Of a stretch of DNA of 20,426 bases, positions 2,279 through 18,993 are shown piece by piece. The translations under genes were made by a program, and so were the position numbers. Positions within the stretch are counted from its first letter, which is position 1. Each line of letters starts with the position of its first letter. The stretch is from a virus. Location: positions 1-20,426 of IMG/VR virus record IMGVR_UViG_3300031607_000027; one strand, written 5' to 3'. A model generated the notes under the pieces. The model was not told where the DNA came from and made no database searches. It was given only the letters and a program-made list of their open reading frames with translations.

Positions 2279-2569
2279 TCAGCCGCCCGGGCCGAAGACC
2301 TTCAGCTTCAGGGCGATGCCTGCGAGCAGCGCCAGGATGATGCCGGTGGTGATCAGGCGCACCGTGGTCTGCACGGCGGTGCGGCGCACGAAGCGGATCG
2401 AGGCCAGCAGGGAGCGCAGATCGCGGATGTCGAGCGCGGCCTCTGTACCATCGAGCCCAACATCCGCCAGCGCGCGCCGGGCCCCTTCCTCGGCGGCCCG
2501 CGCAAGCAATTCCTCGAACTCGGCATCCGGCATGCGGACATGGCCCTCTCCGGAACGGCGCGGGCTCAT
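2279..2569 (-). CDS. DUF6127-family small membrane protein
   Basis: A 96-residue protein. The N-terminal two thirds are acidic and helical (FEELLARAAEEGARRALADVG, split by an A/G-rich stretch, then LDIRDLRSLL). The C-terminus is a single hydrophobic helix at about residues 72-90 (LITTGIILALLAGIALKLKV). This matches the DUF6127 family, found in alphaproteobacterial prophages near tail and lysis genes, whose function is unknown. Its ATG overlaps the stop of the preceding tail gene as ATGA. The position just before the endolysin and the single membrane helix make a holin-like or lysis-modulating role possible, but that is inference. Confidence 0.65.
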   Translation of the reverse strand: MSPRRSGEGHVRMPDAEFEELLARAAEEGARRALADVGLDGTEAALDIRDLRSLLASIRFVRRTAVQTTVRLITTGIILALLAGIALKLKVFGPGG

Positions 2570-3564
2570 GCGGACAGGATCCCGGTTTCGGTCGGCAGGG
2601 TCAGATCGCTCCAGGGACTGTTATCGACGGGATTGAGCGCCCACGTCGAATATACCGACTTTGGGGCGACGATGGGCACCGTTACAGCCGCCGCATCATG
2701 ATCAACGCCACCCATGCGCAGGAACCCTGCCGTCGCTTGCGGCCCGTTGGTGCCTGCCTGCGCGATCTGCTTGAGATGCACGCCTGCCACGGCCGATATG
2801 GCAGTCGGGCCCGTGGGGCCGCTGAGGGAAAAGGAGAGACGCTGACCTGCCAGAGTGCTGGCAACGCGGGATGCGAGATTGCCATCCTTGAGCGCATCGA
2901 TGCTGCCGATCATCTCACTATAGGTTGCCAGAGTATTGGGAACACGGCGGACGAAGCGCCGCCCAATGGTGGAAACACCATCGAGGATTGCGATATGGGC
3001 GTAATACCAGGCATGATTGGAAAACGTGCCATGCAGACCACCATTCCCGAAAACCAGATGTGCCGGCTTACCCTTGCCACCGGTGTTGGCCGCCGTGGCC
3101 GTGCTCTGCAGCACACCGTCGACGAAAAACTCGATGGTGATATCGGTATCGACCGCCAGCCGGACATCGACCCATTGCGGCTGGCCGCTGGTGGCAAAGT
3201 AGCTCGATGATCCTTGTTCGATCGTGTCGCCATGGGCTTCGGCATGATAGCGGTTGGTGCTGCTTAGGGGTCGGACCCGGGCAAGCAGGGCATTGCTGGC
3301 GCTGAAGAAGTCGAGGAAGGTCGCACCGGATTCAGTGATGGTATGCGCATCTCCGCTGGGCGGCACATAACGAAAGCCCAGCCAGAGATCCCCTGTTGGC
3401 GGGGCATGCGGTATTCTGAACGGCGTATAAACGCTACGCGCGCCGGTGAACCGTAGCGCATTGACGTCCAGGGTTGCGTCAAACCCTGCCGTGACTGTGC
3501 TGAGATATCCCGAGATGCCGGAAATATCCGTGGGCTGATGGCCCAGATGCAGGATGTGTGTCAT
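2566..3564 (-). CDS. Tail protein with concanavalin A/LamG-like lectin fold, putative receptor binding
   Basis: A 332-residue protein. Residues about 25-215 look like a beta-rich concanavalin-like jelly roll. It begins with a strand around FDATLDVNALRFTG, continues with DLWLGFRYVPPSG, and then WVDVRLAVDTDITIEFFVDGVLQST. The last block is the 'x-V-x-(I/V)-x-x-D-G-x-x' strand pair typical of LamG/pentraxin modules. The C-terminal 120 residues end with YSTWALNPVDNSPW, a pattern common at the end of phage tail-fibre proteins. It is the last of three coupled genes downstream of the J-like tip protein (ATGA overlaps on both sides), so a receptor- or glycan-binding role at the tail tip is likely. 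No exact family is recognised. Confidence 0.65.
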   Translation of the reverse strand: MTHILHLGHQPTDISGISGYLSTVTAGFDATLDVNALRFTGARSVYTPFRIPHAPPTGDLWLGFRYVPPSGDAHTITESGATFLDFFSASNALLARVRPLSSTNRYHAEAHGDTIEQGSSSYFATSGQPQWVDVRLAVDTDITIEFFVDGVLQSTATAANTGGKGKPAHLVFGNGGLHGTFSNHAWYYAHIAILDGVSTIGRRFVRRVPNTLATYSEMIGSIDALKDGNLASRVASTLAGQRLSFSLSGPTGPTAISAVAGVHLKQIAQAGTNGPQATAGFLRMGGVDHDAAAVTVPIVAPKSVYSTWALNPVDNSPWSDLTLPTETGILSA

Positions 3565-4430
3565 GGCAGTTCCACTTCGATATAGAGGGTTGCATGCGCA
3601 GCGGTGAGCAAGCTGCTGCCGCCATGCTCGATAAAGATTGATGCGACAGAGGTGGTCAGGCGGGTATCGCCGCCCAAGTCGATCCAGAGATCAGCCGCCC
3701 CAATGGTAAGGTCCTTGTCCCAAGCGAACTCGATGAAGGCATGGGCCTCAAAAATGCGTAGGTCGGGTTCCTCAAAGCCAAGCGCGCGCACGCCGGGCGG
3801 GACCGGATAGCTGAACTGCGAGGGCTGCGAGCGCATGGTGCCGCCGTCGCCGGGATTGCGTCCCTGGATCTGTGGGTAGAAGGCAGCGCTGCCACCGGCG
3901 GTCCATGTTGGCGCCCCGCTCACAGGGTCGTCGCGCCAGATGCCGTTCTTTCCGATCCAGAGACTGGCGGCAGCTGGGTCAAGCACGAACATCAGCACAT
4001 CGCCTGCGCCATAGGTTGGCATGCCGGTGATGCGCTGGGATGCGGTGGAGGTGTCGGACGACCAAAGTGATCCGTTGCCGCGATAGCCGATCGAGCCAAG
4101 CGTGATCGGGTTGTTGCCGGTATTGAACTCCTCGCGCTGCGCGGCCGAGACGACGCCCATATACCCGTCGAAGCTGGCGGCCCCGCTGGCCGCGCAGAGC
4201 ACCTCCCAATAACGTCGCCCATCCGAGGGCAGGATCGCCTTCGTGGTGGGCACCCAGCGCTGATAGTTGGTCCCGCCCGAGGTATTCACGGCGGTCTGGT
4301 TGCCATCCGACAGCGTGTAGCCCGGAGGGCGACGGGTTGTGTCGAGTTGCCAGACTGAGCCGATGTCGACCGGCGGCGCGCTATCGCCACCCTGCGCCAG
4401 GATTGCTGCGCGCATCATGAAAAGGCTCAC
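3561..4430 (-). CDS. Tail protein with SPRY (B30.2-like) domain
   Basis: A 289-residue protein. The start was taken as the GTG at 4430, which overlaps the previous stop as GTGA; an in-frame ATG at 4418 is the alternative. Residues about 36-215 read as a SPRY domain: RRYWEV near 72, a DGYMGVV strand near 88-94, GSIGYRGNGSLWSSD, then PTYGAGDVLMFVLDPAAASL and WIGKNGIW, and finally AFYPQIQG. The YWEV ... GD-x-(I/L)-x-x-x-(L/V)-D ... (W/F)-x-x-NG ... YP order is the SPRY hallmark. The C-terminal 75 residues contain repeated beta units (FIEFAWD, LWIDLGGDTRL, IFIEHGGSSLL, LYIEVEL). SPRY folds bind proteins or glycans; in this position the likely job is host or virion recognition. Confidence 0.7.
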   Translation of the reverse strand: MSLFMMRAAILAQGGDSAPPVDIGSVWQLDTTRRPPGYTLSDGNQTAVNTSGGTNYQRWVPTTKAILPSDGRRYWEVLCAASGAASFDGYMGVVSAAQREEFNTGNNPITLGSIGYRGNGSLWSSDTSTASQRITGMPTYGAGDVLMFVLDPAAASLWIGKNGIWRDDPVSGAPTWTAGGSAAFYPQIQGRNPGDGGTMRSQPSQFSYPVPPGVRALGFEEPDLRIFEAHAFIEFAWDKDLTIGAADLWIDLGGDTRLTTSVASIFIEHGGSSLLTAAHATLYIEVELP

Positions 4431-5104
4431 GTCACGGCCCCCGCCAGCGCACCCTGAATGACCCAGGCATCGGCCCCGCGCTTCACGAGTGCTGCGCCCG
4501 ACCATTGGCCATCGAGCGCGACGGAGCCGCCGGTCACCCCATTGAGCGACACACCCGGTGCCGCCGCGACCGTGGCGATCCCAGCGCCGACTTGCGTGAC
4601 ATTGATCAGCGTGCCGATCTCGAAAGGTGCCGATGATTCAGGCTGGATCGTTACGGTGACGGCCGAGGAGCCAGTCGTCTCTAGGATGCTGCCCAGATCA
4701 TCGGCTTCCAGCGTGTGACTGGTGGCCGTCAGCGTCCGGATCCGCACCACCCCGGGCCGGGGCACCTCGACCCAAGCCCCTCCGGTGAACCGCACATGCT
4801 GCGCCTCGTCGGCGATCCAGATCTGCCAGCCCTCCTCGGGGGTGAGGTAGACCCATGCCGGGGCACCGGCTGGCGATTGGTCCCATAGCGCCAGCGCATT
4901 GGCATTGGCACCTGCCGTGGCGGGCACAATGGCGATCTGGCCCGCGGTGCCGGTGGCAGGCAATGGGGCGGTCCGCGATGTGGCGCGCCCTTGAACCAGT
5001 GCCGAGAGGTGACGCAGGTCTTCGCTGAGGCTGGTGCCCCAGTTGCGCTGGCCGGGGTCATAGAAGGCGCGCAGCCCCAGTCCCGGCATGATCCGTTCGG
5101 GCAT
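4427..5104 (-). CDS. DUF2793-domain tail protein
   Basis: A 225-residue protein if started at ATG 5104; a GTG at 5116 and an ATG at 5089 are also in frame, and no strong ribosome site decides between them. The first 20 residues (GLRAFYDPGQRNWGTSLSED) resemble the opening of proteins carrying DUF2793. Residues about 50-115 contain the domain itself, with APAWVYLTPEEGWQIWIADE and then HVRFTGGAWVEV. The rest is a beta-rich, glycine/threonine-rich region (LEADDLGSILETTG, VTVTIQPESSAPF), typical of phage fibre or baseplate accessories. The gene sits between the J-like tip gene and the SPRY gene and overlaps the latter, so it is probably a structural component of the tail tip. Confidence 0.7.
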   Translation of the reverse strand: MPERIMPGLGLRAFYDPGQRNWGTSLSEDLRHLSALVQGRATSRTAPLPATGTAGQIAIVPATAGANANALALWDQSPAGAPAWVYLTPEEGWQIWIADEAQHVRFTGGAWVEVPRPGVVRIRTLTATSHTLEADDLGSILETTGSSAVTVTIQPESSAPFEIGTLINVTQVGAGIATVAAAPGVSLNGVTGGSVALDGQWSGAALVKRGADAWVIQGALAGAVT

Positions 5105-5179: not shown

Positions 5180-8100
5180 TCAGGTGCCCCAGAGAAAGCC
5201 CCAGCCGCGATCCCAACCGGCAGCGAAGGGTGCGGTCAACTGGTACCGGCGCGCTTCCTGGTCGATGAGCCATGTGCCTCCGACCAGCCGGCGCGACCGG
5301 ACGGCAATATCGATCTCGGCGGTGCGCTCGGGCGCGCCACTCTCGGGGATGTCCTCGGGCGTCAGCGTCCAGTTCGTCCCTATGCCAGCGTCGATGACGA
5401 TGCCGGGCGGCATCAGGGCCACACCCGTATCCGGATCGACCCAGCGCACCTCAATTGCATAGCCGACGCTCGGCTCAGGCCCAACGGAGCCACCCGTATG
5501 ATCGACGATGACCGGGCTGGTCTGCGTCAGGCGGTCGCGATGGGTCCAGGTGAGGACGAGATCATCTGCGATCAGCGCATCGACATCCGGCGCGTAGCTG
5601 CCGTTGGCTTGCACCCGCCCGGGTGGCAGGGGGCGGATGGCACGCCTGTTCAGCGTCACGCTGTCTTCCGGGGCGAGCGCAAACGCCAGCGTGCCACGCC
5701 CGGTCTCAGGCAGCAGCCGGACCGCGAGGGTCTCACCCGCCGCCCAGGAGTCTTCGGTGATCCGCGCGCCCTCGTCGAAGAAGATCACCGGAGTTCCCGC
5801 CGTATGGACGCGCGGCACGGTGTCGAGGCAACCCCGGCCCACGGTGATGGCCGTGGCGGTGATCCCGTCGACGCGAACCAGTTCGCCATCGATGCTGGCC
5901 AGCGTGCCGATGCCAACCTCGCCAATGTCGCGCCAGCTGGTGACCGGGATGACGCGCGCCTCCGGGTGGTCCGACATATCGGCCGACAACAACGCCGTGG
6001 GCGCAAAGGCGACTACGCCTTCCTGCGCGGGACCGGTGCCGGGATCGATCCAGAGCTCGGCCGCCAGCGCGTCGGCGCTGGGTCGTTCGCCGGTGGCGAC
6101 CAGCGCGCCCGCGTCCGGATCCTCCGCAAGAATGCGGTCAGCCTCAGAGTGACCCAACTCGCGAACCAACAGCCAGTATGGGGCTTCTTTGACCATACGG
6201 CGCGTCAGCGCCCGTGGCGGTGCGGCGACTCCAGTGCCGGTTGGCATGCGCCCGCCAGCAATGGCGGTGGCACCCATCGCAAACACATCCTCAGCGAGCT
6301 TCAGCCGGATGCCGTTGTCGCGACCGTCGCCCTGACCGATCTCGGAGATGCGCATGACTACGTCATTGAGTCCCAGCCGACCTGACCGCAGCCGGATCAC
6401 ATCGCCAGGCCCGAGGTCCGCGCCTTGCCGGTTCACCACGATCTCACCTGACAGCAGCGGAACCGAAAGGGCGCGCAGGTCGCGCTCGGCCACGCGGATT
6501 GCCAGCCCCTGGTAGCGGATGCCGGGATAATCGAGCGTGGTCGCGATGACCTCGCCCATGGCCTGTACCCGCGCCGTGTCGGTGACGCTGACAGCGCCCG
6601 TATCGTCCGTCCAGGCGTCCGTGAAGCGCACGGTGACGCTGTTGACGAGGTCCGAGGGCGCGCGCCGTCCGAGGCGGCCCCAGTCCACGACATTTGCTTC
6701 ATCAAAGAGTGGCAGGTTTGCTGCCACATAATCCGCCCGGATCAGCTTCAACTCCCAAAGCCCGGTGCGGCGGTCGATGAACAGCGTGGCGTCGATGTGG
6801 TCGAGAACGCTGCCAATGAACTCCTCGATCGAGCTGTCCTGCTGCCAGATCAGCGACAGCCCGAAGCCTTCGATGTAAAGCGCATCTGCCGCGCCCATGA
6901 AACTCGCCCCGATCTCGACTGTGGAATAGCCCAGACCCCAATCGCGGTTGGTGAGGCACTCGCGGATGATATGAGCCGGGTTCATGTCCGGCCCGTTGCC
7001 GAAGGCCCCGCGCAGAGAGGCCACCAGCGCTTGCGGGTTCCCAGGTGGGATGACCGGCACACCGTCGACGGGCGTGTTGTCGATGCGCGCGGTGAAGGTC
7101 GTATTGGCCAGTGCGATGTTGAATCCAAAGATATCGGCAGGCGGCAGGGTGGCGATGGTGGCGAGTGCTGCATCAACCGAAGAGACTGGCGATGGCTCGC
7201 CATCTGTTACGAAGATGACGATCCTGCGCTTGGACCCGCCACCGGCAAAAAAGGTCGCCGCTTGCGAGAATGCTGCGTTGAAGCTGGTGCCGCCTGAGGT
7301 GCTGTTCGACAGCGCAAGCATCCAGGCCTCGAGCGCCACATAGTCCTCTGGCCCCATGTCGCGTCGTTCAATTGCACCTGCGACGCCCGCATTCCACAGC
7401 ACGAGGCGCATATCATTCGGCCTGTCAGGATCGACCCCCGCCCCGATCTCGCGGATCAGCGCCGCGACGCCTGCTTTTTGCGCCGCCATGCGGGTTCCCG
7501 ACATCGAGCCTGAGACGTCAAGCGCGATGTAGATCGCCGCATCCGAGATATTTGCCTCAGGCACGATGGGTGCCTTGTCCGGATACCATTGTACTGAGCC
7601 CGCTTCACCGATCAGCACCCGGGTCACGCGGACCGCCCATGGCTTCAGATAAGGATTGATACCGAGGTACACCTGCCGCAGCACCAGGCTGCAGAGCCCG
7701 CGATAGCCGGGTACATCACCGCTCATGCGCGCTGCCAGATAGTCGTTCTGTCCCTGGCCCGGCCCGCCCATCAGCACATCGACATTACCGACGATCCCAC
7801 CCTCCCGGCTTTCTCCACCAAAGAGGTCCGGCTTGTCGATCCGGATGCGTCCGCCACCCGCACCGGCATTGCTGGCGGCAGTCGTGGCCTCAAACACCTC
7901 GACCGACTGCGCCGGGAAGCTCAGCCCCTCGGGCAGTACGGACCAGGAGGTGACATTTGTCACTGCACTAAAGGCCACACCGCGCAGTGTGATGCTCTGG
8001 CTCGAGCCATTCGCCAGTCGCAGCCGGTAGTCCCGGCCGATCCGCACCCCGGCCTGTGTACCGGAAAAGGTGATCGTGGCACTGGTATCGCCAGCGAGGG

Positions 8101-8311
8101 CCGCGGTGGCTGCCATGCCCGCAACCGTGCCGATGCGCGTCTCCACGGCCGCGCCCCCGCCCGAGACACCGCTGCCTGTGGTGACCGACCAGGCTGTGCG
8201 GCGGTCGACAAGGATTTCGCGGATGGCATCGATCGGCCCGTGGCAAAGGGCCATATGCATTCCGAGCGAATACCGAAAACCGACCGTCTGCGCCTTGCTA
8301 CGCCCGCCCAT
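5180..8311 (-). CDS. J-like tail tip / host-specificity protein with an inserted von Willebrand A domain
   Basis: A 1043-residue protein, the largest in the window. The start ATG has GGAGGT 5 nt upstream and overlaps the previous gene by 14 bp. Residues 1-250 form the N-terminal tip region (GGRSKAQTVGFRYSLGMHMA, HGPIDAIREI, LKPWAVRVTR, WYPDKAPI). Residues about 258-435 are a complete VWA domain: DVSGSMSG with MIDAS residues D265, S267 and S269, T342 in SGGTSF, and D370 in IVIFVTDGEP. The tip-protein scaffold resumes at about 440 with DMNPAHIIRECLTNRDWGLGY, a hallmark of the 'phage-tail 3' type region, and continues with fibronectin-like and beta-rich segments to the end (WGFLWGT). In lambda-like phages this protein closes the tail tip and contacts the host receptor. 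The VWA insertion is not part of the usual architecture. Confidence 0.88.
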   Translation of the reverse strand: MGGRSKAQTVGFRYSLGMHMALCHGPIDAIREILVDRRTAWSVTTGSGVSGGGAAVETRIGTVAGMAATAALAGDTSATITFSGTQAGVRIGRDYRLRLANGSSQSITLRGVAFSAVTNVTSWSVLPEGLSFPAQSVEVFEATTAASNAGAGGGRIRIDKPDLFGGESREGGIVGNVDVLMGGPGQGQNDYLAARMSGDVPGYRGLCSLVLRQVYLGINPYLKPWAVRVTRVLIGEAGSVQWYPDKAPIVPEANISDAAIYIALDVSGSMSGTRMAAQKAGVAALIREIGAGVDPDRPNDMRLVLWNAGVAGAIERRDMGPEDYVALEAWMLALSNSTSGGTSFNAAFSQAATFFAGGGSKRRIVIFVTDGEPSPVSSVDAALATIATLPPADIFGFNIALANTTFTARIDNTPVDGVPVIPPGNPQALVASLRGAFGNGPDMNPAHIIRECLTNRDWGLGYSTVEIGASFMGAADALYIEGFGLSLIWQQDSSIEEFIGSVLDHIDATLFIDRRTGLWELKLIRADYVAANLPLFDEANVVDWGRLGRRAPSDLVNSVTVRFTDAWTDDTGAVSVTDTARVQAMGEVIATTLDYPGIRYQGLAIRVAERDLRALSVPLLSGEIVVNRQGADLGPGDVIRLRSGRLGLNDVVMRISEIGQGDGRDNGIRLKLAEDVFAMGATAIAGGRMPTGTGVAAPPRALTRRMVKEAPYWLLVRELGHSEADRILAEDPDAGALVATGERPSADALAAELWIDPGTGPAQEGVVAFAPTALLSADMSDHPEARVIPVTSWRDIGEVGIGTLASIDGELVRVDGITATAITVGRGCLDTVPRVHTAGTPVIFFDEGARITEDSWAAGETLAVRLLPETGRGTLAFALAPEDSVTLNRRAIRPLPPGRVQANGSYAPDVDALIADDLVLTWTHRDRLTQTSPVIVDHTGGSVGPEPSVGYAIEVRWVDPDTGVALMPPGIVIDAGIGTNWTLTPEDIPESGAPERTAEIDIAVRSRRLVGGTWLIDQEARRYQLTAPFAAGWDRGWGFLWGT
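7007..7540 (-). other. VWA (MIDAS) domain coding segment inside the tip-protein gene
   Basis: This segment encodes residues about 258-435 of the tip protein. It has the alternating strand/helix pattern of a Rossmann-type VWA fold, with IYIALDVSGSMSG, then MRLVLWNAG, then KRRIVIFVTDGEP and ADIFGFNIALANTT. All MIDAS elements (DxSxS, T, D) are present, so metal-dependent ligand binding is plausible. It is bordered by the tip-protein motifs WYPDKAPI and DMNPAHII. Confidence 0.85.
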
Positions 8312-8830: not shown

Positions 8831-9697
8831 TCAGACGATGGAGCCGCCGCCGAAGGGGTTGCGGCCGGGGATTTCAGGAAAGCCCCCGAAATTGAGGAGA
8901 TTGCCGAACTTCGCCGCACAGGTAGTGGCGCGCAGATCGCAACCTGGGGCGATGTCGGCGAGGACTGGAAGCGGGTCGCCCGTATCCGGGTCGAATTCCG
9001 GCATGGTGAGCGCTGCGGCCAGTTCTGGCATCGGGCGCGAGAGCGTTATGGCGGCGGCTGTATGGCCCGTGATGAAGCCCAGTTGCGCCCCGAACCGCAG
9101 CACCCCACCGCGATACCAGCCGTTCGGTTCACTGGCCGCCTCGGGGATCGTCACCATGGATCCACCATTTGCGGTGGCTGTTACTGTACCTGTCAGCCAA
9201 GAAAGCGCGATGTCGAGCCCGCAGCCCCGGCCGTAAAGCGCATGGCGGCACAGGCGCTGGTACTTGGCCCGCACGCCTGCGCGGCGCAGCGTGCTGAACA
9301 CGGATTCGCAATTCAGGATGATCCGCTGACCCTCGACCTCGGCCCCCACCACGCGCCCCTTCCAATGCGCGACCGTCTCGCCCAGCACCTGCTCATGACC
9401 GCGAAAGATCGTCAGCGTCACGGCTGCGTTCCCCATCGGTGCCAGAAACCGCCGCGCAAAGGGATGCGAGAGCGGCCAGGTCAGTTCCAGCCGCCCGCGC
9501 TCGATCTCGCTGGTCTGCACCACATCGCCATGCGCCACGGCGGCAGGGTCCCATGTGATCGTATCCCCGCCGCTGCTGGCGCTGATCCAGTCCTCGGCCC
9601 GGCTGGTGAAACGCCAGACCTGATCGCCCTCGACGAACTGATAGAGGAAGTAAGGGCGGCCCTCGGCGGTGGAGACCTCGATGATGTCATAGGTCAT
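8831..9697 (-). CDS. BR0599/DUF2163-type tail hub protein (gpL-like, probable Fe-S protein)
   Basis: A 288-residue protein matching the phage BR0599/DUF2163 family, whose best-known relatives are tail hub proteins of lambda-like phages and gene transfer agents. It has a two-part structure: an N-terminal beta-rich domain (TFSRAED-like TSRAEDWIS, then ERGRLELTWPLSHPF) and a C-terminal domain with CRHALYGRGCG and CDLRATTCAAKFGN, ending NFGGFPEIPGRNPF. The four cysteines C150, C159, C253 and C260 form pairs spaced C-x8-C and C-x6-C. That is the pattern that binds a [4Fe-4S] cluster in lambda gpL, so a cluster is expected here. The start overlaps the previous stop as ATGA. It should sit between the distal tail ring and the J-like tip. 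Confidence 0.85.
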   Translation of the reverse strand: MTYDIIEVSTAEGRPYFLYQFVEGDQVWRFTSRAEDWISASSGGDTITWDPAAVAHGDVVQTSEIERGRLELTWPLSHPFARRFLAPMGNAAVTLTIFRGHEQVLGETVAHWKGRVVGAEVEGQRIILNCESVFSTLRRAGVRAKYQRLCRHALYGRGCGLDIALSWLTGTVTATANGGSMVTIPEAASEPNGWYRGGVLRFGAQLGFITGHTAAAITLSRPMPELAAALTMPEFDPDTGDPLPVLADIAPGCDLRATTCAAKFGNLLNFGGFPEIPGRNPFGGGSIV

Positions 9698-10875
9698 TGT
9701 GGAACCTCGATAACCGGCAGGGTCAGTTCGCTTGCGACTGCCCCGTGCTGGATCTCCACCCGGTCGGCGTCGGCGCGCACTGCGTTCAGAAAATACACCT
9801 TCGCGCCGATTGGCACTGGTTCGCCAAGGTTTGAGGAAATTGTCAGCCGATGGTCCAGTCCGTCTGCAATGGCGGCGGTGATAGAGCGAAACCGTAGCGC
9901 ACCAGTCATCTCGAACATGATACGGCGGCCGACATAGGATGTGAGCGGTGCGATCGGCGCCACACGCATGATCACCGAGCCCGAGGTCATCGCTGCGCGC
10001 AACTGCAGCTCACGCCCCCATGTCGGCAGCCAGAAGCTGGCCTGGCGTCCGCGCAGCGACCATAGCCAGCGGCGCAGGGCGTCTCTTGCGGCGGGGCCCC
10101 GGGCCTTCAGTGTGATCGCCTCGCCGCGCTCGAACACATCGCGCATCGGTTCAACCATTACGGGCCCGAAGCCGTTGTCGACATACTCGACCGCGCGGCG
10201 CAGGCTGGCGCTCAGCGGGCCACGGACAAGGCTTGGGTCTGTCTGGACACGCCGATTCAGATAGGTCGGCAGCGTCGGAGCCGCGAGGTCGGGGGCGCCG
10301 CGCAGTAAAAAGCTGGCCGTCACCGTGCCATCGCCCTGCCTGCGCCGCGTGATCTGCACAGCCGAGGGCAGCAGACCTGGGCGGATCGGCATGATTGTGA
10401 TCCGGCGGGCCGATACCGCCTGATCGGGCAGGTGCAGATCGGGCAGTCCCATATCCAAAGGCGCTGCCAGGATCAGCCTGTCGGCCTCCACGGCTGCGAT
10501 CTCCACCAACCCGACCGCGCCGCCGTCTACAGCGATCCCGGCCAGCCCTACTGCCCTAAAATCCGAGACTGCCGTGTCCAGAGGGATCTGCGTCATCCCC
10601 GCTACCAGATCAGCGGCAGGCTGGAGCGCCATGTGCCACAGCGGCACCCGCCATTCCCCCGCAAAGCTCGCCCGCACCAGTTCCGCCGCGCGCGCCATGC
10701 CCAGTGCATCCAGCCGGTGGCGAAACGTGACGATCTCGCGTGGGCGGGGGCGGAGCGCGATGCGCTGTTCGTCGGCGCGCGATGACAGCACGTCGGTGCG
10801 CCATTCCAGCACCTCGGTGATTTCCTGCGCTGCCGGGAAGGGCCAGAGCGGTGGCGTATCTCCCACTTCAGGCAT
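9694..10875 (-). CDS. Putative distal tail protein
   Basis: A 393-residue protein conserved in position between the tape measure and the L-like hub gene; I cannot attach a named domain with certainty. It begins PLWPFPAAQEITEVLEWRTDVL and continues with repeated beta segments. Two similar halves may be present, each with an aromatic 'F/W-R-x-P-L/F-W'-like stretch (GEWRVPLWHMAL near residue 75 and RQASFWLPTWGREL near residue 290). GRQASFWLPTW resembles the 'FWLP(S/T)W/F' segment that I associate with distal-tail (Dit/gpM-like) proteins. The start overlaps the tape-measure stop by 8 bp and the end overlaps the hub gene as ATGA. A distal ring at the end of the tail tube is the expected role. Confidence 0.6.
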   Translation of the reverse strand: MPEVGDTPPLWPFPAAQEITEVLEWRTDVLSSRADEQRIALRPRPREIVTFRHRLDALGMARAAELVRASFAGEWRVPLWHMALQPAADLVAGMTQIPLDTAVSDFRAVGLAGIAVDGGAVGLVEIAAVEADRLILAAPLDMGLPDLHLPDQAVSARRITIMPIRPGLLPSAVQITRRRQGDGTVTASFLLRGAPDLAAPTLPTYLNRRVQTDPSLVRGPLSASLRRAVEYVDNGFGPVMVEPMRDVFERGEAITLKARGPAARDALRRWLWSLRGRQASFWLPTWGRELQLRAAMTSGSVIMRVAPIAPLTSYVGRRIMFEMTGALRFRSITAAIADGLDHRLTISSNLGEPVPIGAKVYFLNAVRADADRVEIQHGAVASELTLPVIEVPQ

Positions 10876-13324
10876 TCATGGCACTCCGGTTGCGGCGGAT
10901 GACATTCAGGATCGCGCGCTCGCCCGAGGGTGTGGCGAGATAGTCGCCGACCACCGAGGGGTCGAGCACGTTGATGATGCGCGTCGACATGTCGGCGGCC
11001 GATGACGGGCTGGCTGCACCATTCATCTCCACCCCGAGCCGCCCGTCGCGGCCGCGGCGCAGGGGCAGGATTGCCTCGGGTCCAGCCTCGCCCATCAGCC
11101 CGATGCCGCGTGAGAACGGAAACACTGTGGGGCGGTTGACGACGCCGCCGCGCGCGAAGGCGGTCAGTTCCTGGCCACCCGCAAAGACACCACCGCGTGC
11201 AAAGCCGAACAGGCTCGCGAGGAACCCACCGCCGCCACCCCCGCCGCCAGAGAAGGCATTGATCAGCGCATTCTCGATCGGCTTGAAGGCCAGATCGATC
11301 AGCCGGCCCGCGAGGTTCTGGGCAATGCGCGAAACCGCGCCCGCAAAGATCTCCCAGGTGAATTCGCCAGATTTGAGCGCCTCCTTGATGGGGCCGGTGA
11401 TGTCCTGCGCCAGACCTTCGGCGATCTCGCGCGAGCGTTCTTGAGCTGCCCGCACCGCCTCTGCCGTGGATTGCCAAGCCGTTTTGGCGGAGTCGGCGGC
11501 CTCGCTTAGGGCTCCGCCCGCAGCACGCCCGCTTTCACCCACGCGCGCCGCTGCTTCGCCAGTCGCATCGATTGCATCCTCGAGCCCCTCGGTAGCGACG
11601 CGCGCGCCTGTCAGCCCTGCCTCCGCCACCAGCCCGCTTGCAGTGACGGCCTCCCGAAGTGCCGCAACCGACTCGAGGGGAGCCGTCGCGGCACCGACCA
11701 CACCGGCCATCATCTCGCGCAGGGCATCTGCCTCGGCGCGGGCCTCAGTAGCATATTGGCCCAGCCCGAGATCGGGCAGTGCAATCGGCTCGGACGTGAA
11801 CGCCGCCTGAAACGCCGCGCGAGCTTGCGCACCTGCCTCGGTCGCGGAGCCTGCGAACGGGTTGTCGACCCGGCCAAGCTCCAGATTGCCGATCAGCGAG
11901 ATGCGGCGCTCCACACCCAGCGTCTCGAGCCCGGCGTTGATCCCCTCCAGAAACCCGTTGATGCGCTGGCCGACGCCGTTCAGCATCGCCTCGACGCCCG
12001 CGATCAGCGCATTCGCGGCCTGGAAGGTGAAATCCCCGATCGTGCCGGGCAGCGCGCCCCAGAGCACCTTGATGGCCTCGAACGCGCCCTGAAACGTGTT
12101 CAGCACGGCATTGCCAAAGCCGATCACGGCGACGAGTGAGGCCTGCAGCGCCTCGGCGATGGCGGCCTTGATCCGGGCCCAGCTGGCCATGATCGAAAGC
12201 CCCATCGCAACAGCGCCAAGCTGCATGCGCTGCCAGACCTCGCTGGCAAGATCGCCCAGCAGCGACAGCGCGGCGCCAAACCCGCCCGCGCCGCGCACCA
12301 ATCGAGCGAACCAGTGGATCAGCTCGCCCGCCGCCACGATCAGGCCGATGAACGGCAGGCGCAAGAGCGCGCCGCGCAGGATGACCAGCGCCATGGCGAG
12401 GCCCTGCACTGACACGGCGGCTGCGATCTTGGCTGCTACGAACCGCCCGGCCAGCAGTGCGGCGATGCCGGTTGCATAGGCTGTCAGACGACCAAGGTTC
12501 TCGAACAGTGTACGGATCGCAATCCCCAGCGGCCCGGTGGTGCGCGCAACAGCAGCCATGGCATTGGCCACGCCCTCCAGCGCAGGGGCTGCGGCGACCG
12601 CCAGCTGGTTCGAGAGCCCGCGCCAGATCAGACCTAACCGCGAGATCGCATCATTGGTACGCTCGATCTGCGCCGCGTCCTGATCGGACACCACCACGCC
12701 AAAGTCCCGCACGTCCTGCGTCGCCTGGCGCAGCGTCGCCGTGTCGATCCGCGTGAACATCAGCGCGGCCCGGTCCCCGAAAAGCTGCGACGCCACCGCC
12801 GCACGCTCGGCATCGGGCACGAACTCGGCCAGCCGGTCCTGAATGAGCGCGATGCGCTGATCGAGCGGCAGCGCCTGCAGCTCGGCAGCGGACAAGCGCA
12901 GCCGGTCGAGCGCGTCGACCGCAGGACCGGCTCCAGCTGCGGCCTGGCTCAGCCGCCGGGTCAGCTGCATCGTGGCCTGCTCGATCTGCCCCATCGACAC
13001 GCCCGCGAGATCGCCCGCGCGCGTCAGCACCTGAATGCTCTCGACCGTCGTGTCGAGCGAAGCCGCAAGCTTGGCCTGCGCGTCGACGGTCTGAAGCCCC
13101 GAGCGGATCATAGCTGTGGCCGCCGCCGCAATCGCGGCCGCCGCCGCCACCATCGCCACCCGCGCGCGTCGCGCAAAGGCCGCAAGCCGCGCATTCGCCA
13201 TTTCCATCTCGCGCGACAACCGGCCAAACCCGCGCGCTCCCGCCTCGCCAACGCCTTCCAGCTCGGCCTTCACTTGCCGCCCGCCAGTCGCGGACAGGCG
13301 GACAGAAACGCGTTTCTCGGTCAT
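10868..13324 (-). CDS. Tail tape measure protein
   Basis: An 818-residue protein. It starts VSVRLSATGGRQVKAELEGV, a typical opening for prophage tape measures, then has a hydrophobic alanine-rich helix at about 55-73, DTTVESIQVLTRAGDLAGVS (about 91-110), and a broad hydrophobic zone at about 280-340 that may enter the host membrane. The C-terminal part contains the usual glycine tract (eight Gly) followed by FLASLFGFARGGVF and GEAGPEAILPLRRG, the hallmark end of these proteins. The ATG has GGGAGG 6 nt upstream and overlaps the frameshifted chaperone stop as ATGA. If tail length scales at about 0.15 nm per residue, the tail should be about 120 nm long, which is an inference. Confidence 0.93.
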   Translation of the reverse strand: MTEKRVSVRLSATGGRQVKAELEGVGEAGARGFGRLSREMEMANARLAAFARRARVAMVAAAAAIAAAATAMIRSGLQTVDAQAKLAASLDTTVESIQVLTRAGDLAGVSMGQIEQATMQLTRRLSQAAAGAGPAVDALDRLRLSAAELQALPLDQRIALIQDRLAEFVPDAERAAVASQLFGDRAALMFTRIDTATLRQATQDVRDFGVVVSDQDAAQIERTNDAISRLGLIWRGLSNQLAVAAAPALEGVANAMAAVARTTGPLGIAIRTLFENLGRLTAYATGIAALLAGRFVAAKIAAAVSVQGLAMALVILRGALLRLPFIGLIVAAGELIHWFARLVRGAGGFGAALSLLGDLASEVWQRMQLGAVAMGLSIMASWARIKAAIAEALQASLVAVIGFGNAVLNTFQGAFEAIKVLWGALPGTIGDFTFQAANALIAGVEAMLNGVGQRINGFLEGINAGLETLGVERRISLIGNLELGRVDNPFAGSATEAGAQARAAFQAAFTSEPIALPDLGLGQYATEARAEADALREMMAGVVGAATAPLESVAALREAVTASGLVAEAGLTGARVATEGLEDAIDATGEAAARVGESGRAAGGALSEAADSAKTAWQSTAEAVRAAQERSREIAEGLAQDITGPIKEALKSGEFTWEIFAGAVSRIAQNLAGRLIDLAFKPIENALINAFSGGGGGGGGFLASLFGFARGGVFAGGQELTAFARGGVVNRPTVFPFSRGIGLMGEAGPEAILPLRRGRDGRLGVEMNGAASPSSAADMSTRIINVLDPSVVGDYLATPSGERAILNVIRRNRSAMNA

Positions 13325-13994
13325 GAGGGTCCTCCCACCTGCGTCTCCATCTGGTCATTGAGTTTGCGCACCATCACCGCCTCAAGGACGGGGAGGAGTT
13401 CGGCGGCAGCGCGGCGGTCCACGCCCAGTGCGTCGGCCATGGCCAGTGCCGCGCTCATATCCCAGCCGAGCACGACGCCGGGCACGGCACGGATCTGGCC
13501 GCCGAGGCGCCCGGCCAGATCCCAGACCTGCCAGCCCTCATGCGTGCGCGGCGCGTTCAGGACTTGCGGGCAGCCTTCGCAGCTTTGCGCGCAGGCTGCG
13601 CAGTAACCTTCGCCCCCGCCATAGACCCAATCGGCGAGGGCGCGGAGGCGTTTTTTTCCGCGTCCAGCTCCAGCCCCTTGGCGACGTAGCCCATCTGGAA
13701 CTTCTCAAAGATTGGCCAGATATCGAGCAGTGCAGCGATGCCTTCAGGCGTCACTGCCACTGGTGTGCCGCCGCCGTCGCCGACACCCTCCCAGTCGAGA
13801 ATGGCGCGTTCGGCGAGGACCTTGCCGAAGATCACGGCGATTTCGTCGTCGCTGGTGCCCTCAGGCAGGGTGCGCACAGCCGGGTCGCTGCGCGCCGCCA
13901 CCATCAGCGCGGTGGTCAGCGGCTCGACCCGGACGCGCACGCCAAGGCACAGGGCAAGCCAGTAGGGCTCGCGGGCGAGGTTCAGGCGCAGCAT
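13321..13994 (-). CDS. Tail assembly chaperone fusion (gpGT-like), made by -1 frameshift
   Basis: Translation starts with the shorter chaperone at ATG 13994, reads 115 codons to the slippery A AAA AAC at 13650-13656, slips back one base and continues in the -1 frame for 109 residues to TGA 13321-13323. The total is 224 residues. The -1 frame is open from the slippery site and encodes RLRALADWVYGGGEGY, then CAACAQSCEGC, then THEGWQVWDLAGRLGG and VLGWDMSAALAMADALGV with AAAELLPVLEAVMVRK. This is ordered, conserved-looking protein, unlike the Ala/Lys-rich end of the zero frame. The T part of the G/GT pair binds the tape measure or tube during tail assembly in lambda. The TGA overlaps the tape-measure ATG. 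The segment after 13557 has no good start codon of its own. Confidence 0.85.
13557..13994 (-). CDS. Tail assembly chaperone (gpG-like)
   Basis: A 145-residue zero-frame product. The start is ATG 13994 because GAGGAG lies 8 nt upstream; the TTG at 14000 is too close to that site. It begins MLRLNLAREPYWLAL and includes GVRVRVEPLTTALM, SDDEIAVIFGKVLAERAI and ALLDIWPIFEKFQMGY. Its end (about 115-145) is low-complexity Ala/Lys, reading VTAQPARKAAKAARKS. The place between tail tube and tape measure is that of lambda G. These proteins coat the tape measure during assembly and are absent from the virion. The coding sequence contains the slippery site and stem-loop that divert a fraction of ribosomes into the GT frame. 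Confidence 0.82.
   Translation of the reverse strand: MLRLNLAREPYWLALCLGVRVRVEPLTTALMVAARSDPAVRTLPEGTSDDEIAVIFGKVLAERAILDWEGVGDGGGTPVAVTPEGIAALLDIWPIFEKFQMGYVAKGLELDAEKNASAPSPIGSMAGAKVTAQPARKAAKAARKS
13611..13656 (-). promoter_or_regulatory. Programmed -1 ribosomal frameshift signal (slippery heptamer plus stem-loop)
   Basis: Read on the minus strand: slippery A AAA AAC (13656-13650) in register with the zero frame (GAA AAA AAC), a 7-nt spacer GCCTCCG, a 10-nt arm CGCCCTCGCC (13642-13633), a 12-nt loop, and the second arm GGCGGGGGCG (13620-13611). All ten positions pair, nine Watson-Crick and one G-U. The heptamer fits X XXY YYZ and the spacer is within the 5-9 nt range known for -1 sites. 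The -1 frame is open downstream. Confidence 0.88.
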
Positions 13995-13996
13995 GA

Positions 13997-14938
13997 TCAA
14001 TACTCCTCAATGGCGTTGATGAGGGTCACGGTGCACATCCGGCCCAAGATCGCGTCACGGGCGGCCTGCCAGTCGAAGGTGGCCTGCACGCCTTGGGGTC
14101 CAGAGATCTCGATGCGCGGGCGTGGCAGATAGACGGCATGGGCGGTGAGCGTCAGGCTTTCTCCCGAGGGCAGCGCGTAGCCGAAACTCAACGCGCAGGG
14201 ATCGCCGTTGATCGCCTGATCGACCAGCACCTGATCGGCAAAGCGCACCTCGATCCGGCCGGTAAGTGCAGCGATGGACGGGTCCGCCCCATCAATGCGC
14301 CCGTCTGAGCGGATGGTCTCGACCCGGTCTAGGGCGTTGGCATAGGTGATCTCGGCCGAGACGATATTGCCCAAGCTGCTGCCGTTGCGGGTAATCGATC
14401 CGTTGAAGTGGCCGAAGCGCTGCAAACCGAGATCGGCCAGCGTGCCCGCAGCGGATGCGGCGGCGATACTCTCGCCCTGCGCCACAAGGCTGGCGGTTGC
14501 GGTCAGCAGACCCGAGCGCTGCATTTGCCAAGACAGCGTATCAAGCACGCAGCCCGAGTACATTGCAAAGCGCGGGATCTCCGGCATGCCTGTCTCGATC
14601 GAGAGCGACGGCAACGTCCAGCCACCGGAGCGAAACTCGTGGGTCCAGGGGGTTTGCGCCCCGGTGGTGATCGGCTGGCCAAAGGCTGCCTTCAGCCAGA
14701 AGCCAAACGCCTCCGCATCGATAGGCACGACCAGATTGCCGTCCGCCGTCACCGCATCCTTGATCGGTGGCAGCGGGTCGCGGCCGTAGCCCAGAAGCTC
14801 GCTGTTCAGAAGCGGCTGTTCCGCCCCCAGCGTCGCGCTGGCGAAGGGCATGCGGGTAAAACCGCTGGCGGGCGGGGTGCCATAGGTCGTCTCGAACGCA
14901 AGCGCCATCTGCGCCCGCGCTCCTTGAGCTCGTGCCAT
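13997..14938 (-). CDS. Tail tube protein
   Basis: A 313-residue protein of the phage tail tube type (lambda V-like position). It begins with a basic ARAQGARAQMALAFETTYGTPP, the usual opening of this family, followed by GFTRMPFAS and a beta-rich body with LVVPIDAEAFGFWLKAAFG and WTHEFRSGGWTLPSLSIETGM. The central part carries VLDTLSWQMQRSGLLTATASL, typical of the tube beta-sandwich. The C-terminal third looks like an added Ig-like or second beta domain. The ATG has AAGGAG 7 nt upstream, and the gene begins after a 25-bp gap, so it has its own strong translation start as expected for a highly expressed virion component. Confidence 0.85.
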   Translation of the reverse strand: MARAQGARAQMALAFETTYGTPPASGFTRMPFASATLGAEQPLLNSELLGYGRDPLPPIKDAVTADGNLVVPIDAEAFGFWLKAAFGQPITTGAQTPWTHEFRSGGWTLPSLSIETGMPEIPRFAMYSGCVLDTLSWQMQRSGLLTATASLVAQGESIAAASAAGTLADLGLQRFGHFNGSITRNGSSLGNIVSAEITYANALDRVETIRSDGRIDGADPSIAALTGRIEVRFADQVLVDQAINGDPCALSFGYALPSGESLTLTAHAVYLPRPRIEISGPQGVQATFDWQAARDAILGRMCTVTLINAIEEY

Positions 14939-17758: not shown

Positions 17759-18916
17759 TTATCCTTTCAACTTGAAGGTGCGGGCGATGACGTCGCCCCA
17801 GGGATGGGTGGAACCAGCCCGGCCCGGCTGGGCATGGGCGTTGCTGATATCAGGATCGGTATCTGCCGTGGCAGCCAGAAGGGCTGCGCGAATGTCATCA
17901 AGACCTCTGTCCTCTTCCAAGAACCGTCCCGCCATTTGCGGCTGACCGGCGAGGCGGCACAGATCAATCACAGAGCGCGCATGCGCGATGGCTTCAGCGC
18001 GGATGGCGCTGGCGTCGGGAGCAGTGTTGGCAACTCCAACAGTGCTCCGTCCCTCAGAGGGGGGAGCTGGTTCTGGACCCAGATCAAAAGTCTTGTCAGC
18101 CGCAAGAGTTTCTGGATCCGGCGCGGGTTCCGCGTCTGGACCTGCTTCAAGGTGAGCCCCAGAAGCTTCGACGCTCTCATTGGGTTCCGTAACGGTGGAA
18201 CCGGCCTCACGCGACGGCGGATCGCTGATCTGAATACCGTCGTGACTATCAACAGTTTCACCCACTCCAGCCTCTGCCGCCTCGACGGCCTCGACGGCCT
18301 CGACAAGCACTGGCGGTGCATTGCGGAAGCGTCCGATGTCGAAGCTGGCGGCAATACGGACTGGCTCTGCCATGCGCGTGGCCAGTCCCAGATCCAACGC
18401 ATCCTGTGCATCGAACCACGTCTCAGCGGCCATCAGCGCTGCAATTTCAATCTCGGGCTTGCCAGATTTGGCGGCATAGCCCCGGGTCATGCTGCCCGCG
18501 ATCTTGTCCAGTGTTTCGGCCATTTCACGCATGTCAGTGGCCGTGCCCATGACAATGCCAGAGGGATCATGGATCATCAGAAAAGCGTTCTCAGGCATGA
18601 TGATCTCGTCACCTGCCATAGCGATGTAGCTGGCAGCTGAAGCCGCAATGCCGTCTATCCAGACCGTGACGGTGCCGGTATGACGCTTCAGCGCATTGTA
18701 GATCGCCACCGCGTCGAAGACTGAACCGCCCGGGCTGTTGATCCGCAAGGCCAGAGGCGTGGTATCCGGCAGCGCGCCCAGCTCCGCCAGAAACCCCTTG
18801 GCCGAGACGCCATAGGCTCCGATTTCGTCGTAGATCAGCACCTCCGCGCCCATCGCTTGGGTTTGGGCTTGGGTTTGGGCTTGGGTTTGGGCCCGGATCG
18901 TGTACCAGCTGTTCAT
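17759..18916 (-). CDS. Prohead protease, S49/ClpP-like, with probable scaffold tail (gpC-like)
   Basis: A 385-residue protein. ATG 18916 was chosen because AGGAG lies 8 nt upstream; the in-frame ATG 69 bp earlier has no ribosome site. Residues 9-21 are an (AQTQ)3 repeat, absent from related proteins as far as I know. The ClpP/SppA domain spans about 24-185: LRINSPGGSVFDA (oxyanion Gly-Gly), GIAASAASYIAMAGD with probable nucleophile S93, and MIHDPSG with H116, then ETWFDAQDALDLGLAT. From about 200 to 345 the chain is acidic, Pro/Ala/Glu-rich and probably disordered, containing the VEAVEAVEA repeat; the last 40 residues are helical and end WGDVIARTFKLKG. In lambda-type phages the C-terminal part serves as the capsid scaffold and the protease removes it during maturation. 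Confidence 0.9.
   Translation of the reverse strand: MNSWYTIRAQTQAQTQAQTQAMGAEVLIYDEIGAYGVSAKGFLAELGALPDTTPLALRINSPGGSVFDAVAIYNALKRHTGTVTVWIDGIAASAASYIAMAGDEIIMPENAFLMIHDPSGIVMGTATDMREMAETLDKIAGSMTRGYAAKSGKPEIEIAALMAAETWFDAQDALDLGLATRMAEPVRIAASFDIGRFRNAPPVLVEAVEAVEAAEAGVGETVDSHDGIQISDPPSREAGSTVTEPNESVEASGAHLEAGPDAEPAPDPETLAADKTFDLGPEPAPPSEGRSTVGVANTAPDASAIRAEAIAHARSVIDLCRLAGQPQMAGRFLEEDRGLDDIRAALLAATADTDPDISNAHAQPGRAGSTHPWGDVIARTFKLKG
18281..18307. repeat. 9-bp tandem repeat in the protease gene (VEA units)
   Basis: CTCGACGGC at 18281-18289 and 18290-18298 followed by the partial copy CTCGACAAG at 18299-18307. It is in frame and encodes VEAVEAVEA-type sequence in the acidic scaffold-like linker. 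Length changes by one unit would keep the frame. Confidence 0.75.
18855..18891. repeat. 12-bp tandem repeat with G-quadruplex motif
   Basis: Three exact copies of GCTTGGGTTTGG (18855-18866, 18867-18878, 18879-18890). On the plus strand this gives six GGG tracts (starting at 18859, 18865, 18871, 18877, 18883 and 18889), each separated by exactly 3 nt. It lies 25-57 bp downstream of the protease ATG and encodes (AQTQ)3 on the minus strand. The G-rich strand is the template strand for this gene. Confidence 0.9.
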
Positions 18917-18993
18917 GATGTTACTCCTGTTCTGTGGCGGGATCGGACGCCGTTGCGCCATCGTCCCGGTAATCACCGTTGCCATTGCCCGGG

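Follow-up and report, generated by a model that had tools for sequence, protein, structure and literature searches.

In phage lambda, the gene that precedes the tape measure gene encodes two tail assembly chaperones, gpG and gpGT, by means of a -1 frameshift near the end of G at the slip site G GGA AAG. Tail chaperones made by frameshifting are well known (Xu, Hendrix and Duda 2004, as cited in PMC5009743 and PMC3711429), and the usual tail-chaperone frameshift is mentioned for a set of Rhodobacter capsulatus phages (PMC8601537). AAAAAAC and GGGAAAC sites are found in the tail-chaperone genes of the Caulobacter phages phiCbK and Colossus (PMC3556154), and an AAAAAAC site in that of the Acinetobacter phage Loki (PMC5313236).

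We analyzed a viral record of 20,426 bp (IMGVR_UViG_3300031607_000027, positions 1 to 20,426; this whole stretch of DNA is called the window below), in which a G/GT frameshift cassette had been predicted from the sequence alone. The locus resembles lambda gpG/gpGT in its position before the tape measure gene, in the -1 frameshift predicted near the end of G and in its two putative chaperone products. As judged from the sequence, it is almost certainly a programmed -1 ribosomal frameshift cassette of the lambda G/GT type, encoding the tail assembly chaperone of a long-tailed phage.

Gene order, gpG and the slip site

On the minus strand, genes for a portal protein, a ClpP-like protease, a capsid E protein and head-tail attachment and minor tail proteins are followed by a tail region in the order tail tube protein, G, T, tape measure protein and tail-tip genes. 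The tail tube gene (13997-14938, minus strand; Pfam Phage_tube_2, E=1.9e-56) is located directly upstream of G, and the tape measure gene (10868-13324, minus strand; phrog_8462, E=2.7e-169) directly downstream of T. G and T are thus found between tail tube and tape measure genes, as expected for the tail assembly chaperone of a long-tailed phage.

Gene G (13557-13994, minus strand) encodes 145 amino acids from an ATG at 13994 to a TGA at 13559-13557. The protein matches the PHROG family of tail assembly chaperones (phrog_313 'Tail assembly chaperone', E=9.3e-19). The AlphaFold model of G (pLDDT 88) bears a resemblance to tail chaperones that is supportive, but not proof. Tail chaperones lead its BFVD list (best E 1.3e-4), and its list of PDB entries, two in all, includes the HK97 chaperone 2ob9, which is weakly similar (Z 4.2 over 93 residues, rmsd 5.5, 8% identity), at a Z value that alone proves nothing. 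Comparison of the G and T profiles revealed no relation between the two.

Outside the tail chaperone locus, the ClpP-like head protease (17759-18985, minus strand; PF00574, E=5.3e-31) contains a QAQTQAQTQAQTQ repeat near its N terminus, so that its true start codon is uncertain. A tail-tip protein of 1043 amino acids (5180-8311, minus strand) has a von Willebrand factor A-like domain at residues ~257-383 (PF13519, E=1.5e-7). As phrog_15205 spans both this domain and the neighbouring 288-aa protein (8831-9697), the two may be fused in other phages. Four long ORFs between 318 and 4505 (318-1034 and 1415-2161 on the plus strand, 2566-3564 and 3561-4505 on the minus strand) have no Pfam match, and no Rfam match was obtained in the window.

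The slippery heptamer A AAA AAC is located at 13656-13650 on the minus strand, within the zero-frame codons GAA AAA AAC (13658-13650). It is therefore an X XXY YYZ heptamer in the register needed for simultaneous slippage, as the original prediction had stated, and AAAAAAC occurs only this once in the 20.4-kb window when both strands are counted. The predicted spacer of 7 nt between heptamer and hairpin is present as well (13649-13643, minus strand).

Relatives were gathered by similarity of the G and T proteins, and not by the heptamer, from viral contigs, genomes, isolates and cultured phages, plasmids and metagenomes. The named genomes among them are mostly from Rhodobacteraceae and kin, and some are from Rhizobiales. 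At the alignment position of T residue 1, a slippery heptamer was present in every one of the 251 distinct relatives (AAAAAAC in 240, GGGAAAC in 10, AAAAAAT in 1), and homologs without it, which would have spoken against the prediction, were not encountered in this set. The zero-frame codons at the site are accordingly GAA AAA AAC (or AAT), or else GAG GGA AAC. This codon choice is contrary to background usage: GAA AAA is found at the site in 241 of the 251 relatives, whereas elsewhere in G only 32% of the Glu codons are GAA and 26% of the Lys codons AAA. On a maximum-likelihood tree of 88 relatives, GGGAAAC requires at least two changes. That one working heptamer has been exchanged for another, which takes three coordinated base changes, strongly indicates selection for slipperiness itself.

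A Shine-Dalgarno-like stimulator upstream of the heptamer was also considered and rejected as a shared element, since the four-base motifs shift in place and are missing in 95 of the 251 relatives. A wide search with the WWWH pattern was uninformative.

The hairpin downstream of the slip site

A stem of 10 bp with one U-G pair and a 12-nt loop had been predicted to follow the spacer, and is found there, with CGCCCTCGCC as the 5' arm (13642-13633, minus strand) and GGCGGGGGCG as the 3' arm (13620-13611, minus strand). The fold of the window's own RNA is not of exceptional stability: compared with dinucleotide shuffles, z was -1.37, and 19 of 200 shuffles folded equally well. As the single-sequence fold is unexceptional, the case for the hairpin derives from comparative evidence, namely from the conserved site and from a synonymous null.

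For this null, the T protein was kept and synonymous codons were drawn from the family's own usage. The fold of the natural 48-nt stretch was more stable than the null in nearly all of 190 distinct sequences (mean z -2.40), with 180 of them below -1. Control windows farther along T gave values of -0.50, -0.19, -0.30 and +0.24. Within the 3' arm, 228 of 251 relatives use GGG for codon 12 of T, compared with a share of 14% for GGG among the Gly codons elsewhere in T.

Covariation was assessed in 46 distinct stems. Changes on both sides with pairing kept were counted in 14 cells, compared with 5.4 in shuffles, and the outer pair had switched from C-G to G-C in 9 stems and from C-G to U-A in 4. 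The covariation score exceeded that of all 500 shuffles, and the structure was better than all slid versions of itself in pairing and covariation score. A clear case of compensatory pairs is seen in RcKemmy (CGCCCUUGC/GCAAGGGCG). Pairs with a two-sided change in any stem numbered 3, no more than in shuffles, since most pairs show little variation.

RNAalifold did not return the 10-bp stem from the mixed alignment of the 46 stems, probably because distant relatives pair in shifted registers. Their stems are displaced by one column or contain a bulge, and several stem positions are unpaired under the window's register. In place of RNAalifold, we relied on counts for the named structure, on individual folds and on the synonymous-codon null. 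With a mean z of -2.40 and the covariation, the structure that starts a few nucleotides past the heptamer is conserved beyond coding need. Alignment of the homologs thus agrees with what had been expected of them, as a slippery heptamer is present in 251 of 251 and the stem arms carry compensatory changes.

The T frame and its protein domain

On the minus strand, the open -1 frame extends from 13650 to 13321 and encodes 109 amino acids after the slip. Its TGA (13323-13321) overlaps the ATG of the tape measure gene (13324-13322) in the sequence ATGA, as had been claimed. In the T-only region beyond the usual stop of G, the median dN/dS was 0.24 in the T frame versus 1.71 and 1.99 in the two alternative frames. 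These values indicate purifying selection on T, rather than the random substitutions that would have spoken against the prediction.

T does not have an independent start near its beginning. Between the upstream stop and codon 55, the T frame of the window contains no ATG, GTG or TTG, and the possible internal starts are GTG55, GTG59 and ATG64. Nevertheless, invariant residues begin at R1 and include, among others, A6, W8, C17, C20, C24 and C27, which implies that T must be reached by frameshift. A -1 frame under purifying selection and without a start of its own is what a frameshift site should be followed by. In the window, the zero frame continues for 30 codons after the slip to the TGA of G (13559-13557, minus strand). 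Of the 251 relatives, 162 have a G tail of 30 codons and 59 one of a single codon, which argues that the extra G tail is dispensable and that T is not.

According to the original prediction, automated annotation would probably miss T. The lack of an early start was correct, but T has not been overlooked altogether. Its C-terminal half is found in databases, labelled as of unknown function, under Pfam DUF7697 (PF24752, E=1.5e-25; T residues 56-104, 13339-13485, minus strand) and PHROG 11212 (phrog_11212, E=5.3e-24; T residues 53-103), and the existing annotations of RcKemmy, RcKai and other R. capsulatus phages include a joined frameshift CDS named 'tail assembly chaperone'. Both models match T in all 19 relatives tested. 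As their extent coincides with the stretch of T that a gene caller would find from an internal start, the members would be truncated copies of gpT. DUF7697 and PHROG 11212 therefore appear, from the sequences, to be C-terminal fragments of a gpT encoded by frameshift, and not proteins in their own right.

The N-terminal half of T contains a Cys4 motif, CxxC-x3-CxxC (T residues 17-27, 13570-13602, minus strand), with cysteines that are invariant in 26 aligned relatives and a spacing that is variable. The motif is a probable zinc site and, to our knowledge, not a feature of lambda T. In some relatives (L037, L028 and L179), the stretch between the cysteines is expanded with more Cys-rich repeats (CEPCEGGGPCEGCEPRGATCKDC in L037). 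The AlphaFold model of T (pLDDT 91.5) is mostly helical, with the four invariant cysteines in a loop. Its best viral matches are named tape measure chaperones, at weak E-values of 0.018 and above. The best match among solved structures, chorismate mutase with Z 5.1, is not meaningful for a small helical domain, and a PDB sequence search with the T profile gave only chance-level matches to cytochrome c.

The A-site codon of the slip site is Asn (AAC or AAT) in 251 of 251 relatives and AAG in none. In E. coli, A AAA AAG is far more slippery than A AAA AAC (PMC5009743). The constant Asn codon may be explained in part by the C of the heptamer, which is also the first base of the codon for the conserved Arg1 of T. 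It was also considered that AAG might be avoided on account of a second lysine tRNA, tRNA-Lys(CUU), that would read it. This had no support in the one host genome checked: 41 tRNA matches in the Rhodovulum genome that holds one of the relatives, an incomplete draft, include Lys-UUU and no Lys-CUU. A search of anticodon loops with a guessed pattern gave no matches. A tentative and rather doubtful generalization would be that phages of Alphaproteobacteria have a distinct type of tail-chaperone frameshift, with a Cys4, probably zinc-binding T domain, catalogued until now only through the fragments DUF7697 / PHROG 11212, and slip sites that take only Asn, and never AAG, as the A-site codon. If this were true, the tRNAs or the ribosome of the host would seem to determine frameshift preferences.

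Proposed mechanism, alternatives and known systems

Together, the heptamer, the hairpin, selection on the T frame, the missing start and the gene order agree with one another and support the predicted G/GT frameshift. A ribosome translating G would have the hairpin at its mRNA entry on arriving at A AAA AAC. A minority of ribosomes would slip back by one base, with tRNA-Lys in the P site and tRNA-Asn in the A site re-pairing on AAA AAA, and would produce gpGT (115 + 109 amino acids), while those that do not slip would add 30 more codons up to the TGA and produce gpG. We infer the occurrence of slippage, its rate and the chaperone roles of the products from these features. By analogy with lambda, G would coat the tape measure protein, the T extension would recruit tail tube subunits, and a low ratio of gpGT to gpG would matter.

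The change of frame could in principle also be carried in the mRNA population, if RNA polymerase slipped on the run of seven A (13657-13651, minus strand). Some bacterial genes use such transcriptional slippage (PMC5009743), and the A7 homopolymer is invariant in most relatives. However, the run remains A7 in register and is not lengthened, and ten relatives keep T and the hairpin with GAG GGA AAC, without a long homopolymer, which argues for slippage of the ribosome rather than the polymerase. The selected downstream hairpin is moreover a requirement of ribosomal frameshifting, and we consider transcriptional slippage very improbable. Homopolymer runs are also common sites of indel errors, and a formerly continuous GT gene might have been broken by a frameshift mutation, natural or due to sequencing. 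It is extremely unlikely that such damage explains the locus, since the 251 distinct relatives, whether from isolates, plasmids, cultured phages or metagenomes, all have G and T in different frames and in the same relation.

There is equally little probability that T is a separate gene with its own internal start and that the A run is coincidental. The restriction of the DUF7697 and phrog_11212 models to T residues 53-104 looks as if the gene had been called from GTG55, GTG59 or ATG64. This interpretation is already contradicted by the N-terminal half, as residues 1-52 are conserved in the T frame, including the invariant R1, A6, W8 and the four cysteines. Constraint in the T frame is visible directly after the slip, and the window does not offer a start codon before codon 55.

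The mechanism of programmed ribosomal frameshifting is known, and the locus is an unusually clear and very well conserved example of the frameshift of long-tailed phages. As the mechanism is textbook knowledge, the value of the example is mostly in annotation: two public family libraries list the C-terminal half of gpT as a domain of 'unknown function', and the complete frameshifted gene is present in many phages and prophages of Rhodobacterales and Rhizobiales. The family, which is large and deeply conserved, is also a good natural panel for -1 frameshifting outside E. coli, with two heptamers, a strong hairpin and a stop of G either one or about thirty codons after the slip.

Among known systems, phiCbK and CcrColossus have the same two heptamers in the chaperone genes before the tape measure gene, but are otherwise unlike the phage of the window. 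A Colossus protein is among the matches to both models, weakly for T (E 5.7) and with E 1.2e-3 for G. RcKemmy, RcKai and other RcC phages of R. capsulatus (gp15/gp16) share 48-50% identity with the window in T and 38-39% in G. Their heptamer is G GGA AAC where the window has A AAA AAC, and the C-terminus of T is longer in them. As in the window, the slippery heptamer is in the same place and followed by a hairpin, with compensatory pairs, and RcKemmy and RcKai also have the order tube, G, GT and tape measure.
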